Of a DNA stretch of 6,444 bases, positions 458-6,444 are shown piece by piece (position 1 is the first letter of the stretch; each line of letters starts with the position of its first letter). Under the pieces are notes generated by a model. That model was not told the origin of the DNA and searched no databases. It saw only the letters and a program-made list of their open reading frames with translations. The stretch comes from Nitrospinae bacterium RIFCSPLOWO2_12_FULL_45_22. GTDB taxonomy: Bacteria > 2-12-FULL-45-22. The stretch lies in contig MHDQ01000170.1 of assembly GCA_001803565.1 (NCBI GenBank), positions 1 to 6,444 of the forward strand, given 5' to 3'. A program made the position numbers and the translations under genes.

Positions 458-930
458 GTAGATAATTTCATAAAACATTATACCACATAAAGTATTGCGA
501 GCTACATGGAGAAGCACCCAAAAGGATAACTAAAGAGGCCCTGGATTATCTCATGAGCTATTGCTGGCCGGGTAATGTCCGGGAGCTAGAGCATACCATC
601 AGCCGGGCCATTATCCTCTCGGCAGGAAAGGGCCTGATCAGACTGAAAGACCTGGAGCTACCAGAAACCTTTCCAGAAAAGGTACTCAAGGAAGAAATCC
701 TTCCCCTTCATATTCAAAAGAAATTGAAGGAGATAAACCTAAATACCCATCAGAGAGAAATCCTAAAACTAGCCCTGGGAAAAGGCCCGGTTACCAGCCT
801 GCAGCTCAGTCAACTATTTAATGTCACCGAGCAACAGATCAGGAAAGACCTTAAACTCCTGCTAGAAAAGGACCTCTTAGAAAAAAACGGAACTACCAAA
901 GGTACTTATTATATCCTAAGGAAATCCTAA
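458..930 (+). pseudogene. Sigma-54 activator (bEBP) copy A: 3' fragment with end of AAA+ domain and winged-helix DNA-binding domain
   Basis: From 493 the frame reads YCELHGEAPKRITKEALDYL, then WPGNVRELEHTISRAIIL, the sensor-II end of the AAA+ domain of RpoN-dependent activators (WPGNVREL is diagnostic). The protein then runs to a C-terminal winged helix (about 764-927): NTHQREILKLAL, TSLQLSQLFNVTEQQIRKDL as the recognition HTH, and a wing ending GTYYIL. The N-terminal part of the AAA+ domain (Walker A, GAFTGA, Walker B) is absent. Upstream, VDNFIKHY at 458-481 matches the LVEYFIHNY of copy B but lies in another frame; a 14-bp insertion (482-495) separates the two parts. An in-frame stop at 463-465 limits the downstream frame. 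An ATG at 553 could start a 125-aa product holding mainly the DNA-binding domain, but no Shine-Dalgarno precedes it. I call it a remnant, though a free DNA-binding domain cannot be ruled out. The sequence immediately 3' holds a decamer array and a sigma-54 promoter. Confidence 0.85.
477..485 (-). promoter_or_regulatory. Extended -10 promoter for the aldehyde dehydrogenase gene (predicted)
   Basis: On the minus strand this reads TGGTATAAT, a perfect TATAAT with the extended TGn element. No good -35 hexamer lies 16-19 nt upstream, which is tolerated for extended -10 promoters. Transcription would start near 470, giving a leader of about 64 nt before the ATG at 406. The site lies inside the 5' end of the decayed activator copy A, and its TGG part falls in an apparent 14-bp insertion there. 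It is a prediction from sequence match only. Confidence 0.45.
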
Positions 931-932
931 AA

Positions 933-1097
933 TATTCGCAACCAATAGGCAAATTTTCTAGCACCTTAAAAACCCGCTACTGACCAGGCTATTCACTTTA
1001 TTCGGTACTTATTCGCAACCTATTCGCAACTTATTCGCTACTCGCCAAAATCCGCTCCTAATCTACATTTCCCCATTATTCGCTACTTATTCGCAAC
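933..1097 (+). repeat. TATTCGC(A/T)AC decamer array, six of seven copies on an 11-bp period (putative enhancer sites)
   Basis: Copies lie at 933-942, 999-1008 (TATTCGGTAC), 1010-1019, 1021-1030, 1032-1041, 1077-1086 and 1088-1097. Four copies from 999 to 1041 and the pair at 1077-1097 follow one another at exactly 11 bp (decamer plus one T or C), about one helical turn, so all would face the same side of the DNA. The 45-bp gap between 1032 and 1077 is close to four turns. The array ends 113 bp before the -24 GG of the sigma-54 promoter, the usual distance for an upstream activating sequence, and follows the DNA-binding end of a sigma-54 activator. The repeats and phasing are seen directly; binding by that activator family is inference. 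Confidence 0.8.
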
Positions 1098-1207: not shown

Positions 1208-1224
1208 TTGGCATCCCCTTTGCG
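1208..1224 (+). promoter_or_regulatory. Sigma-54 (RpoN) -24/-12 promoter
   Basis: The sequence TTGGCATCCCCTTTGCG has GG at 1210-1211 and GC at 1222-1223 with exactly 10 bases between, and fits the family consensus TTGGCAC-N5-TTGC with one change. Predicted transcription start is near 1235. The nearest downstream genes are the small ORF at 1292 and the 196-aa gene at 1525. The phased decamer array 113-277 bp upstream strengthens the call. Confidence 0.8.
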
Positions 1225-1291: not shown

Positions 1292-1408
1292 GTGAAGGAG
1301 AAAGGAGGGGCAAAAATAAAAATGTCTGCCCCAAGTATGGCTAGCTTTCTGAAGGGAGGTGATGAATCTATCTTTAGGCTAGTAGATGAGAAGACCTATG
1401 GAAGTTGA
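1292..1408 (+). CDS. Possible 38-aa small protein in the sigma-54 leader
   Basis: A GTG at 1292 opens 38 codons ending in TGA at 1406-1408. The product begins MKEKGGAKIKMSAPSMASFL and ends IFRLVDEKTYGS. A strong Shine-Dalgarno, GGGAGGTGA (1275-1283), lies 8 nt before the GTG; its GGAGG core is 11 nt away. An in-frame ATG at 1322, with AAAGGAGGGG (1301-1310) upstream, would give a 28-aa version. The peptide is basic at its N-terminus and acidic towards its C-terminus, has no Cys, no membrane segment and no signal peptide. It is the first translatable unit after the sigma-54 promoter and lies 116 nt upstream of the 196-aa gene. No family is recognised. A GG pair at residues 23-24 recalls double-glycine leaders, but no processing enzyme is in view. 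It could equally be a translated leader or non-coding RNA. Confidence 0.45.
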   Translation: MKEKGGAKIKMSAPSMASFLKGGDESIFRLVDEKTYGS

Positions 1409-1524: not shown

Positions 1525-2115
1525 ATGGATATTACTCCCTATATTTTACCTAATCAGGATCGGGTATTAGGAACCTGTGGAAATGATTTCAAAGATTATC
1601 TGATTAGCCATCGGAGACCGTCAGGAGGAGATCGAGGGATTTATTTTTCATATCCCATGAATTCAGGGGATGATGGTACTCGGCATTGCTGGGGAATCTT
1701 GCGGATAAGAGGTGGATACCTCACCCTGGATTATGATGGTATGAAGCAAACTACGGCTCATACCTATCGAGACCCTAATTTTCCTGATGGGGCCAAGTGG
1801 TGTCCTTCTGATGTCCAGTATGATACACCATATCGTTATGGTGGCCGCCAGGTGGCGAATATGTATTCCACCTGCGTCCTTGATCCCTGGCAGAATTATG
1901 ATCCTGAAGTAAGGGTCTATGATGCTGGATACCAGGATATTTGTGGATTTAGTATTCACAGAATCAAGATACATGCTGTGGGAGCACAGGTAGAGGATTT
2001 CTGGTTCGCCCGCGATGTAGGATTGGTAGGCTATGCTGGCCCAACTTGGAGTGGAGGCTGGGTCTACTGCAAAGGCAACGATGGCACCTTAGTTACCTGT
2101 GGTGCTAACTGGTAA
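1525..2115 (+). CDS. Unrecognised Cys/Trp/Gly-rich 196-aa protein, target of the sigma-54 promoter
   Basis: The ATG has an excellent Shine-Dalgarno (AAGGAGGG, 1510-1517) with 8 nt from GGAGG to the start. I do not recognise the family. The 196-residue protein has seven Cys (18, 55, 93, 117, 140, 182, 192) spread along its length, seven Trp, many Tyr and Gly, and short motifs such as GTCGND, RHCWGI, KWCPSD, DICGFSI and VYCKGNDG. This composition suggests a compact beta-rich fold of the kind common among extracellular or lectin-like proteins, yet there is no signal peptide or membrane segment: the N-terminus MDITPYILPNQDRV is polar. It could therefore be cytoplasmic, exported by a non-classical route, or a metal or redox protein. 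The predicted sigma-54 start is 290 nt upstream, so regulated expression is likely. A broken gene follows after 20 nt with its own ribosome site and no terminator between them, suggesting a former operon. Coding is well supported; function is unknown. Confidence 0.85.
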   Translation: MDITPYILPNQDRVLGTCGNDFKDYLISHRRPSGGDRGIYFSYPMNSGDDGTRHCWGILRIRGGYLTLDYDGMKQTTAHTYRDPNFPDGAKWCPSDVQYDTPYRYGGRQVANMYSTCVLDPWQNYDPEVRVYDAGYQDICGFSIHRIKIHAVGAQVEDFWFARDVGLVGYAGPTWSGGWVYCKGNDGTLVTCGANW

Positions 2116-2620: not shown

Positions 2621-5600
2621 TTAAGGTATAAACGTGAAATAGGCCAGACTAATGGGGGAAAGCAGTTGAGGAGAGCCCTTCTGGGTAGTACCAGCTTCTG
2701 CTAGCGCCGAGAAGGCAAAGTAAGTACCGGGAGATAAGTCAGAGGGTAGGGTTAGAGAAAATAAGCGGTAGCTATCGAATTTGCCGTTGCCATCGCTATC
2801 AGAATTCATCTCGGTAGAGTTAGGAAATACGAAACCAGGGGACAAAGTAACTCCCTGGGCAAAAGAGACGAAGCTACGGAGATCAGTGGGATCAGCAGGC
2901 TTCGCAGGCAGGGTTGGGTTGAGAAAATAAATACTGTCATCAGGAAAGCCAAAACCGATAAAGACATCAACTTTGGTCTCCGTTGTAGAAACCAAATTAC
3001 CCACCCAAAGATAAAGCTCGATAGTATCCCCAAGGGAATAATGGGATTTATTGGTGGCTACTCTGATCGTGGAAGCCCGTCCCAAGGCTATGATGGTCAT
3101 GGTATCCGGTTCACTGACCGATTGATTATTATTGACGATTAGCTGAACTTTATAGATACCATCTGTATCAACCGTAAGGGTACATTCTTTACCTCCCGTA
3201 TTCGCCAGAGAAGTCTTACTATCTAGTGGTTTTAATGTGATTGACCAGTTATAAGATAGTTCATCCTTGTTAGGATTATAACTATTGGTCCCATCAAGAA
3301 TCACGGTAGAGCCTGTAGATACCACCTGATCCGGGCCAGCATAGGCTATCGGGTTCTGTTCAGTACCGACGGCGGTAATAATTACTTTATCCGGAACACT
3401 TTCATCAATACGGTCACGGACAATCAATTGTACCTCATAGATGCCTGCTAGATCCGTTACCAAGCTGGGACTTGTCTTAGCTGGATCCGACAAATAGGCA
3501 TTACTCCCCACCGGCTTTGCCACCAAGAGCCACCGGTAGGAAAGGGGATCACCTTCAGGATCGCTGCTGCCTGAACCGTCCAGTTTTACCTTAGCACCCG
3601 CCGCAACTATCTGATTGGTACCAGCTTCCGCTATAGGTAGCTTATTGGGCTGAGCAAGATATATATTATACCCGTCACTAAAGGCTATCTGGCTTTGATT
3701 ATTCAGAGAAAAGTTATAAATATTTATTTTTTCTAGTTGAATAACCTTTGCAATCTTTCTCCCATTATAGAAATAAATACTATCTGCTGGCAATATCCTA
3801 TACCTATCTGGCGTTGTCCTATCCCTATTTAATGATTCACCCCCTCCCATTCCATCTCTTAAGTGTTTAAAGGCTATCTGGCCATAATCATTCAGGACTG
3901 GTAATGAAGTAGAAAAATCCAGCTCCGCGGTTATATTGGTAATCTGCCCTTTATCATAAAGATAGATATTCCGGCGGCCGCTAGCCGGGTCAAGACCCTC
4001 AAAGGCTACCTGGCCATTATTGTTAAGTATTGGATTTGAGGATGAGATAGGTAAATGAGCAGTAATATTGGTAAAGTTCTCTCCGTCATAAAAGTAGATA
4101 TCAGAACGGGACAAATCATTTATAGATACGGTAAAGGCTATCTGGCCCCAATCATTGAGGCTGGGCGAAGTAGCCCAGGCTTTTAAATCTGCAGTAAGAT
4201 TCGCAAGGGTATTACCGTCATATAGGTAAATATTAGATATCTTCTGCGAATATTCTTCTGGAATAGTACTGCCCGCGAAGGCTATCCAGCCGTTATTATT
4301 CAAGCTGGGCGGGGATACTCCCAACTCCATATTGGCAGTAATATGTTTAAAAGTATTACCATCATAAAAATAGATATCATTGGGATATGGGGCACGTACA
4401 TAAACGGCTGGGGTGGAAAAGGCAACCTGCCTTTGATTATTCAAGCTGAGGTTAAGCAGGCTGGCGGTGTAACGGTGGATAATAGTGTCAGAAATAATAT
4501 TGGTAAGGTCGTTACCATCCGAGAAATAGAGGGTTGTTCTATCTATAGAATCTGTTCCAAAAAAGGCAAGCTGTCCTGAATCGTTAAGGTCGGGATAAGA
4601 ACAAGGACAATATTTCAGTTCATTATAGGTAATGTTGGTAATCTCTTGTCCATCATAGAAATAAATATCAGACCCAAATTGGGGATACTCAAAGGCTACC
4701 TGTCCTTTATTGTTTAGACTCATGCTTGATGCTGTACCAGATATACCACGATATAAATTAGCTGTAATATTTACCACCGCCTCCTTATCGTACAGGTAGA
4801 CATGATAATATTGCCCATTATGCCCAACAAAGGTGACCTGGCCTTGATTATTAATCTGCGGGTACATAGGAGAAAAATTTGTATTGGCCGTTATATTTTT
4901 AAGGGTACCCCCATCATAGAGATAAACCTCCTCCCTGCCAGAAGTCAGGTTTGGAAGAGAGAAGGTCAGTTGACCATAATCATTCAGGTCAACATACGAG
5001 ATGGGGACAACGGGAGGTCTCATATCTATTAGCTGGGAAGTGATATTGGTAAGTTTGGTACCATCAATAATATAGATATCCTGGCGGCCAGAAGACCAAT
5101 CTAGGCCCCAAAAGGCTATCTGACCCTTATTATTAATGCTAATGCGATAGGGATCTATTACGGAGATATTTGAATTAGGCGTCAAATTCTTTACTTCGCT
5201 CCCATCATAAAAATAGATATGGGTAGACCAGTAATCTCGGTCTACAAAGGCTATCTGACCATGATCATTCAGACTGGGTACTGTGGCGAAAATATCTAGA
5301 TCGGCGGTAATATTCTTAATGCCTTGACCATCATAGAGATAGATATCAGAGCGGTGAAGCCCCCAATCAACATCTAAAAAGGCTATCTGATCGGTGTTAT
5401 TAATGACCGGGGCTTGGGCATGGACTTTTAAATCCGAGGTGATATTGGTTATTTTATCTCCATCATAGAGATAAATATCACTATACTCACTTCGATCCTC
5501 CCCGACAAAGGCTATCCGGCCATGATCATTGAGGGAGGGGTCTCTGGCTGAAAAAGTATTCTCATTGGCTACTATCTTACTGATCCGGAAATTATAGGCT

Positions 5601-5704
5601 TTAATATCTTCTGCCCGACCCGGACTAAAAGATAAAGTAATTAACCCTATTATTAGTAATAGCAAAAAGATAAGGGCATTGACCCCACTTGGCTTTCCTA
5701 ACAT
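2621..5704 (-). CDS. Large exported protein: signal peptide, 14 NxxGxxAF propeller-like repeats, two PKD domains, C-terminal beta domain
   Basis: From ATG 5704 the protein has 1027 residues. Residues 1-31 form a Sec signal peptide (MLGKPSG, hydrophobic ALIFLLLLIIGLITL, then SPGRA before ED). Residues 55-687 hold fourteen repeats of about 45 residues with two hallmarks: LNDxGQIAF and DIYLYDGxxITNIT. These match NxxGxxAF-type tandem repeats and probably form beta-propeller blades. Two PKD domains follow (about 690-783 and 784-874; AGxxQxVxxGxxVxLDGxxS openings, SYxW cores, YxVQLIV ends). The C-terminal beta region (about 875-1027) has a calcium-loop-like DSDGNGKFD. No LPXTG, PEP-CTERM or other sorting tail is seen. 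Probable role: extracellular or periplasmic surface protein binding glycans or proteins; no catalytic motif seen. ATG 5704 is chosen because GGGGGGG lies 8 nt upstream and the signal peptide then starts correctly. The frame stays open to a TTG at 5821 (1066 aa), whose GGAGG is only 1 nt away, too close. Convergent with 2136-2571. Confidence 0.92.
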   Translation of the reverse strand: MLGKPSGVNALIFLLLLIIGLITLSFSPGRAEDIKAYNFRISKIVANENTFSARDPSLNDHGRIAFVGEDRSEYSDIYLYDGDKITNITSDLKVHAQAPVINNTDQIAFLDVDWGLHRSDIYLYDGQGIKNITADLDIFATVPSLNDHGQIAFVDRDYWSTHIYFYDGSEVKNLTPNSNISVIDPYRISINNKGQIAFWGLDWSSGRQDIYIIDGTKLTNITSQLIDMRPPVVPISYVDLNDYGQLTFSLPNLTSGREEVYLYDGGTLKNITANTNFSPMYPQINNQGQVTFVGHNGQYYHVYLYDKEAVVNITANLYRGISGTASSMSLNNKGQVAFEYPQFGSDIYFYDGQEITNITYNELKYCPCSYPDLNDSGQLAFFGTDSIDRTTLYFSDGNDLTNIISDTIIHRYTASLLNLSLNNQRQVAFSTPAVYVRAPYPNDIYFYDGNTFKHITANMELGVSPPSLNNNGWIAFAGSTIPEEYSQKISNIYLYDGNTLANLTADLKAWATSPSLNDWGQIAFTVSINDLSRSDIYFYDGENFTNITAHLPISSSNPILNNNGQVAFEGLDPASGRRNIYLYDKGQITNITAELDFSTSLPVLNDYGQIAFKHLRDGMGGGESLNRDRTTPDRYRILPADSIYFYNGRKIAKVIQLEKINIYNFSLNNQSQIAFSDGYNIYLAQPNKLPIAEAGTNQIVAAGAKVKLDGSGSSDPEGDPLSYRWLLVAKPVGSNAYLSDPAKTSPSLVTDLAGIYEVQLIVRDRIDESVPDKVIITAVGTEQNPIAYAGPDQVVSTGSTVILDGTNSYNPNKDELSYNWSITLKPLDSKTSLANTGGKECTLTVDTDGIYKVQLIVNNNQSVSEPDTMTIIALGRASTIRVATNKSHYSLGDTIELYLWVGNLVSTTETKVDVFIGFGFPDDSIYFLNPTLPAKPADPTDLRSFVSFAQGVTLSPGFVFPNSTEMNSDSDGNGKFDSYRLFSLTLPSDLSPGTYFAFSALAEAGTTQKGSPQLLSPISLAYFTFIP
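3644..5542 (-). repeat. Fourteen tandem NxxGxxAF / IYLYDG coding repeats (about 135 bp each)
   Basis: Each unit has an LN(D/N)xGQ(I/V)AF strand and a (D/N)IY(L/F)YDG...NIT strand. All fourteen first motifs are countable, with drift in units 2 (INNTDQIAF), 9 (LNNQRQVAF) and 14 (LNNQSQIAF). Unit 13 carries an insertion of roughly 20 residues rich in Gly, Arg and Asp. Unit 14 stops after IYLAQPN, and a matching strand (FRISKIVANENTF) precedes unit 1, as in propellers closed by the N-terminal strand. Fourteen units suggest two seven-bladed propellers; that is inference. Confidence 0.85.
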
Positions 5705-5874
5705 ACTTAAGGCCCCCCCTCTTTCTAAAGATTTACAAACGTCCTTCAAACAAGATAACACACCCTTCCAGCCCTGCGGTGAACGAATACAAGAATTCTT
5801 TACATCTCTATTTTCCTTCAAACCTCCTTATCCAGTCTGTAAGCTCAAGGCATCTTGCTATCTACTTTTTTATT

Positions 5875-5920: not shown

Positions 5921-5937
5921 TTGGCATAGCTTTTGCT
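5921..5937 (+). promoter_or_regulatory. Second sigma-54 -24/-12 promoter, facing activator copy B
   Basis: TTGGCATAGCTTTTGCT has GG at 5923-5924 and GC at 5935-5936 with exactly 10 bases between, and shares TTGGCAT and TTTGC with the element at 1208. Predicted start is near 5948, about 81 nt before the ATG at 6029. No TATTCGCAAC array lies upstream, because the region immediately left is the start of the large minus-strand gene. It implies that the activator gene was itself transcribed by sigma-54 holoenzyme. Confidence 0.7.
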
Positions 5938-6028: not shown

Positions 6029-6444
6029 ATGGTAGTTAGCCCTCCTGCAACATTTATGGATATGATCGGCACCAACCCGGTGATGCAATCCCTTTTCAGG
6101 AAGATAGCGCTAGTGGCTCCCAGGGATATAAAGGTCTTAATCCAGGGCGAGAGGGGAACGGGAAAAGAATTGGTAGGGTGGGCTATTCACAGGTTAAGCA
6201 AGAGAAGCAAAGGTGTATTTAAGCAGTTAAACTGTGCCGGCTTGCCCAAGGATCTCCTCCTATCCGAGCTATTCGGTCATGAGAAGGGGGTCTTTACTGG
6301 TGCCTATAGCAAGAAGGTAGAGAGTGAAGAAGAGACATTCCCTTACTGGTAGAATACTTTATCCATAACTATTGCGAGCTACATGATGAAGCACCTAAAA
6401 GGATAGCTAAAAGGGCCCTGGATTATCTCATAAGCTATCCCTGG
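6029..6444 (+). pseudogene. Sigma-54 activator (bEBP) copy B: PspF-like N-terminus, internal deletion and frameshift (runs off the right edge)
   Basis: The frame from ATG 6029 gives MIGTNPVMQSLFRKIALVAP, the Walker A GERGTGKE (residues 40-47), the family segment FKQLNCAGLPKDLLLSELFG (64-83) and HEKGVFTGAY (84-93). These are the opening motifs of the AAA+ domain of RpoN activators, with no N-terminal sensor domain, as in PspF. The sigma-54-contacting GAFTGA loop reads GVFTGA. After SKKV the sequence jumps to ESEE and then, in the frame starting at 6334, DIPLLVEYFIHNYCELHDEA, followed by ALDYLISYPW. Roughly 80-95 residues are missing, including Walker B (GTLFLDE), sensor I and the Arg-finger segment. 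The ESEE codons are still in the original frame, so the deletion was in-frame; a further shift in GAAGAAGAGAC (6326-6336) causes termination at 6350-6352. No Shine-Dalgarno precedes ATG 6029; another Met is at 6056. It cannot be a working ATPase as read. Confidence 0.85.

Follow-up and report, generated by a model that had tools for sequence, protein, structure and literature searches.

The window analysed here, 6,444 nucleotides in length, is the entire contig C170 of a 3.67-Mb MAG (321 contigs, 85% complete). A minus-strand aldehyde dehydrogenase gene, truncated at the contig boundary, occupies its left end, and next to it, on the plus strand, lies the 3' remnant of an enhancer-binding-protein (EBP) gene (490..930), hereafter copy A, which encodes an AAA lid (PF25601) and a C-terminal winged helix-turn-helix (HTH) domain of the DeoR/helicase type. 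Between copy A and a sequence of the sigma-54 promoter form GG-N10-GC, TTGGCATCCCCTTTGC (1208..1223, plus strand), is the array of short direct repeats that is the subject of this analysis (933-1097, plus strand).

Downstream of the promoter, two plus-strand open reading frames come into consideration as its targets. The first candidate is a possible 38-aa ORF at 1292..1408, directly after the promoter, which has a GTG start followed by KEKGGAKIKMSAPSMASFLKGGDESIFRLVDEKTYGS and a good ribosome-binding site (GGAGG) before the start, and for which no family was matched. The second is a 196-aa ORF at 1525..2115, with GGAGGG upstream, for which searches of Pfam, PHROGs, NCBIfam and phage records returned nothing; within this genome, two very weak matches to the protein occur, both in contig C250. 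The minus strand then encodes a 1066-aa protein with two PKD domains (2621-5821), which also contains about 14 degenerate, DUF7453-like internal repeats spaced mostly 129-144 bp apart. Close to the right end, a second sigma-54 promoter motif, TTGGCATAGCTTTTGC (5921..5936, plus strand), which is not preceded by a decamer array, lies 92 bp before the ATG of copy B, the 5' part of an EBP related to copy A (6029..6444, plus strand), which runs off the contig end. An Rfam search matched no family.

Architecture and distribution of the decamer array

Six exact copies of the decamer TATTCGCWAC start at positions 933, 1010, 1021, 1032, 1077 and 1088; the first-pass annotation counted seven, and the copy at 999, TATTCGGTAC, which makes up that number, has one mismatch. 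An eighth copy, AATTCGCTAC, also with one mismatch, lies outside the array at 1443. All decamers of the array are on the plus strand, in a single orientation, and the decamer has no dyad symmetry. The first of them, TATTCGCAAC (933..942), is isolated, 66 bp (6 x 11) before block 1, in which four decamers (the mismatched one at 999 and those at 1010, 1021 and 1032) follow each other with an exact 11-bp period (999..1041). Block 2 (1077..1097) consists of two decamers, at 1077 and 1088, 11 bp apart, the first of which starts 45 bp (4 x 11 + 1) from the start of the copy at 1032 that closes block 1. The start spacings thus bear out the earlier description of six copies that keep an exact 11-bp period inside each of two blocks, with block 2 shifted by 1 bp: the copies at 933, 999, 1010, 1021 and 1032 share one 11-bp lattice, and those at 1077 and 1088 are off it by 1 bp. 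The further proposal that the copies are helically phased on the same face of the DNA holds roughly, and within a block, given that 11 bp against the 10.5 bp of a helical turn amounts to a drift of about 17 degrees per site. The absence of a coding explanation is confirmed: the copies are intergenic, 3' of the copy A stop (930), and their period, 11 bp, is not divisible by 3.

The tandem array at 933-1097 is real and far above chance. At up to two mismatches, the decamer has 22 matches in the window compared with 8.7 +/- 3.0 in dinucleotide shuffles, none of 200 shuffles reaching 22; TRF reports an 11-bp tandem at 998-1042; and the direct-repeat score of the gap between the copy A stop and the promoter is 21.5, compared with a shuffle mean of 7.7 and a maximum of 14. 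The segments 969-1021 and 1047-1099 are 75% identical over 53 bp, at a 78-bp spacing, and degenerate units are present between the blocks; the two blocks thus seem to go back to an older and weaker duplication, about 78 bp in length.

Genome-wide statistics, here and below, come from pattern searches and individually retrieved loci. The search of the 3.67-Mb assembly for TATTCGCWAC tandems, suggested in the first-pass annotation, found a single array, at this locus. The genome contains 17 exact decamers, six of them in the window (the reversed control pattern occurs 8 times), and the other 11 all occur singly, within open frames that measure 157 aa or more and away from any good sigma-54 motif. 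The scattering across the genome that would have spoken against a dedicated role is therefore not what is found: the array is confined to the gap between copy A and the promoter. Because there is only one array, the genome yields no statistic on the co-occurrence of decamer and activator.

The EBP-promoter layout and the fate of the activator

The -24/-12 promoter reported downstream of the array is present at 1208-1223 and is a credible one. Across the genome, YTGGCAYN5TTGC is found 21 times, compared with a single occurrence of the reversed control pattern, and RpoN is encoded as well. More telling is the arrangement of such promoters relative to EBP genes, 25 EBP-type matches being found in the genome. 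With sigma-54 motifs called near EBP genes by a simple weighted score (threshold >=20), 10 of the 22 other EBP genes have a same-strand motif within 400 bp downstream, compared with 0 of 22 for the opposite strand within the same distance downstream and 0 of 22 for the final 400 bp within the gene itself. The distance from the end of the EBP gene to the same-strand motif ranges from 39 to 360 bp across the genome loci; the 277 bp between the copy A stop and the promoter at 1208 fall within this range, and the array occupies that gap. The sites of the array are repeated, lie in noncoding DNA and fall within the roughly 80-300 bp before the promoter that would be expected for an upstream activating sequence (UAS), and the succession of EBP gene, gap and sigma-54 promoter recurs elsewhere among the EBP genes of the genome. 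In Desulfovibrio, the EBP gene DVU0569 is likewise recorded as being followed by a sigma-54 promoter (PMC4641369).

Several of the other loci have repeats of their own in front of the promoter. On contig C297 (locus L118), a 20-bp tandem, TCTGCCTCAAAATAGAGACA, is situated between an EBP gene and a sigma-54 promoter, at about -200, and is a candidate for a second, clean activator site in the same genome. Significant direct repeats accompany two further sigma-54 promoters, with a 23-bp spacing at -169 on C270 and a 33-bp spacing at -171 on C293, and other EBP gaps contain dyads, for example, TGTTAACCTATAAGTTAACA (locus L035 on C137). The common layout and the repeats at other EBP loci provide the strongest support for an enhancer, and this support is independent of the decamer itself.

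The activator presents a more complicated picture. The DNA-binding domain of an activator, noted next to the array in the first-pass annotation, is indeed there, in the form of the AAA lid and the DeoR-type HTH, but the gene is devoid of the AAA+ core: the Walker A, GAFTGA and Walker B motifs are all missing from copy A, which so does not qualify as a working sigma-54 EBP. Copy B is intact through GVFTGAYSKKVES, with Walker A and GAFTGA present; after GAFTGA, a frameshift and an internal deletion remove the Walker B region and rejoin the lid region (RRDIPLLVEYF..). Over the 78 bp that they share, copy B (6367-6444) and copy A (490-567) are 87% identical at the DNA level. Both copies are therefore pseudogenes in this assembly, and with both broken, the array may be an orphan. 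A possible homology of positions 433-490 to the copy B deletion junction was considered, and the match is too weak to claim; the structure model of copy A (pLDDT 41) is too poor for use.

Read by eye, the C-termini of all 22 other EBP genes are of the Fis type, copy A being the sole non-Fis member among the 23, which fits a site without dyad symmetry. Among 192 genomes, relatives of the copy A EBP were matched in eight others, all with Fis-type C-termini by eye. The first-pass annotation had proposed to look for intact genes that encode the winged helix of copy A; none was found in the assembly, an absence that is not final given that the assembly is 85% complete. The missing intact EBP lowers the standing of the array as a working enhancer but not the view that it was built as one.

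On balance, we favor, with a probability of roughly 0.55, the interpretation that the array serves, or until recently served, the sigma-54 promoter at 1208-1223 as its upstream activating sequence. The enhancer proposed from the first reading of this DNA thus gains from the promoter class, the layout shared with other EBP genes and the confinement of the array, and loses from the lack of an intact activator; the regulatory circuit may be a relic rather than a working system. That the probability is not set higher is mainly due to an array of the same kind in an unrelated genome, which is discussed next.

Competing explanations

The tandem pattern was found at 5 loci in other genomes, among 85k species. 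Four of these have two copies only, which we estimate to be about the chance expectation in 257 Gb, and the 33 loci found in viral contigs, in various unrelated sequences, are likewise near chance for the pattern by our estimate. The fifth is a true array, located between ruvC and ruvA in a Deferribacteraceae MAG (L012:1691-1815), where about 11 head-to-tail 11-bp units, TTATTCGCAAC/TTATTCACAAC (TTGCGAATAAG / TTGTGAATAAG), follow each other, with no EBP and no good sigma-54 motif beside them. As this example shows, arrays of one and the same word can also come about neutrally or for other reasons.

The near identity of the two arrays lends weight to the possibility that the array in the window is a neutral minisatellite: replication slippage, in addition to the older duplication (about 78 bp), would have expanded an 11-bp unit amid decaying pseudogenes, without any protein reading it. 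The broken EBP copies on its flanks, the degenerate units between the blocks and the resemblance of the blocks to each other are all in line with such an origin. What speaks against it is the position of the array, in precisely the interval between EBP gene and promoter in which activator sites appear to be located in this genome, the near identity of copies that belong to separated groups, with a single orientation and spacings that are mostly multiples of 11 bp, and the lack of a second such array anywhere in the 3.67 Mb. We consider neutral expansion unlikely, but of all the alternatives to an activating sequence, it is the one that has to be taken most seriously.

Non-palindromic direct repeats with an 11-bp period are typical of PhoB/OmpR sites. 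The array could, accordingly, be an operator for another regulator that binds head to tail, either a response regulator of the OmpR/PhoB type or a different winged-helix repressor, acting on the same or on another promoter. A precedent exists in BosR, a winged-helix protein that is not an EBP and whose direct-repeat sites lie next to a sigma-54 promoter (PMC3037356), and a poor sigma-70-like match overlaps 1208-1237. Yet the contig contains no gene for an OmpR/PhoB-type regulator or such a repressor, the closest regulator remnant is that of an EBP, and sigma-70-like matches in the region number 3, compared with 4.1 in shuffles, all of which makes this explanation improbable. A cluster of DnaA boxes 11 bp apart, loading DnaA for replication or titration, seems very improbable, notwithstanding that TTATTCGCA is one base off the DnaA box TTATNCACA and that some units of the related Deferribacteraceae array are exact DnaA boxes (TTATTCACA), because the same non-consensus base recurs in all seven copies in the window, the array is not near dnaA, and the region upstream of dnaA in this genome (C134) contains the canonical TTATTCACA and TTTTCCACA and no TTATTCGCW, so that the box as used there is not matched by the array.

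A possible enhancer of head-to-tail sites

If the array is an upstream activating sequence, the following scenario can be envisaged. An EBP that ends in a winged helix like that of copy A, rather than in the usual Fis-type HTH, would bind several head-to-tail decamers, roughly on one face of the helix and 110-280 bp upstream of the promoter; the bound subunits would assemble the AAA+ ring, which would loop to the sigma-54 polymerase and open the promoter, with the 38-aa and 196-aa ORFs downstream probably being served by it. The decamer may be recognized by the copy A domain itself, binding could be cooperative, and the six or seven sites would conceivably match a hexameric ring.

The proposed arrangement resembles known ones in part. 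The UASs of NtrC-family EBPs (NifA and FhlA; the Clostridiales UAS motifs, PMC6615313) are alike in lying 110-280 bp before a GG-N10-GC promoter with the EBP gene adjoining, but many of them are inverted repeats (TGT-N10-12-ACA), whereas here seven non-palindromic decamers are arranged head to tail, mostly with an 11-bp period. Nla28 of Myxococcus xanthus (PMC9765219) uses short direct-repeat half-sites of 8 bp, two to five per sigma-54 promoter, that differ from the array in their sequence and irregular spacing (mean 25 bp), with no 11-bp array. GcsR of Pseudomonas aeruginosa (PMC4894688) has tandem EBP sites, three of 18 bp, before an RpoN promoter, but, unlike the decamers, each of these sites is itself palindromic. 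The DVU0151-type EBPs of Desulfovibrio (PMC4641369), which contain GAFSEA in place of GAFTGA, share with copy A a predicted C-terminal winged helix instead of the Fis HTH, a likeness by domain type only. At Borrelia rpoS, the direct repeats bound by BosR adjoin a -24/-12 promoter (PMC3037356), but BosR belongs to the Fur family, and its repeat is TAAATTAAAT. It is possible, then, that the array is a variant of the known sigma-54 UAS and not a new system. The more ambitious proposition, that there is a family of EBPs with a C-terminal winged helix for which a helically phased, head-to-tail 11-bp array acts as the sigma-54 enhancer, each subunit of the ring taking one of about six sites, in an architecture unlike the dyads that Fis-type EBPs use, is rather doubtful on the present evidence.

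The simple rule that emerges from the other EBP loci, namely, that an EBP gene ends and, after a short gap, a same-strand sigma-54 promoter follows, allows activator sites to be located readily in a phylum that has been poorly sampled. Should a winged-helix EBP bind the array, this would demonstrate that short direct repeats along a single helical face can make up a sigma-54 enhancer, and it would become testable whether phased monomer sites, rather than dimer sites, template the assembly of the ring.
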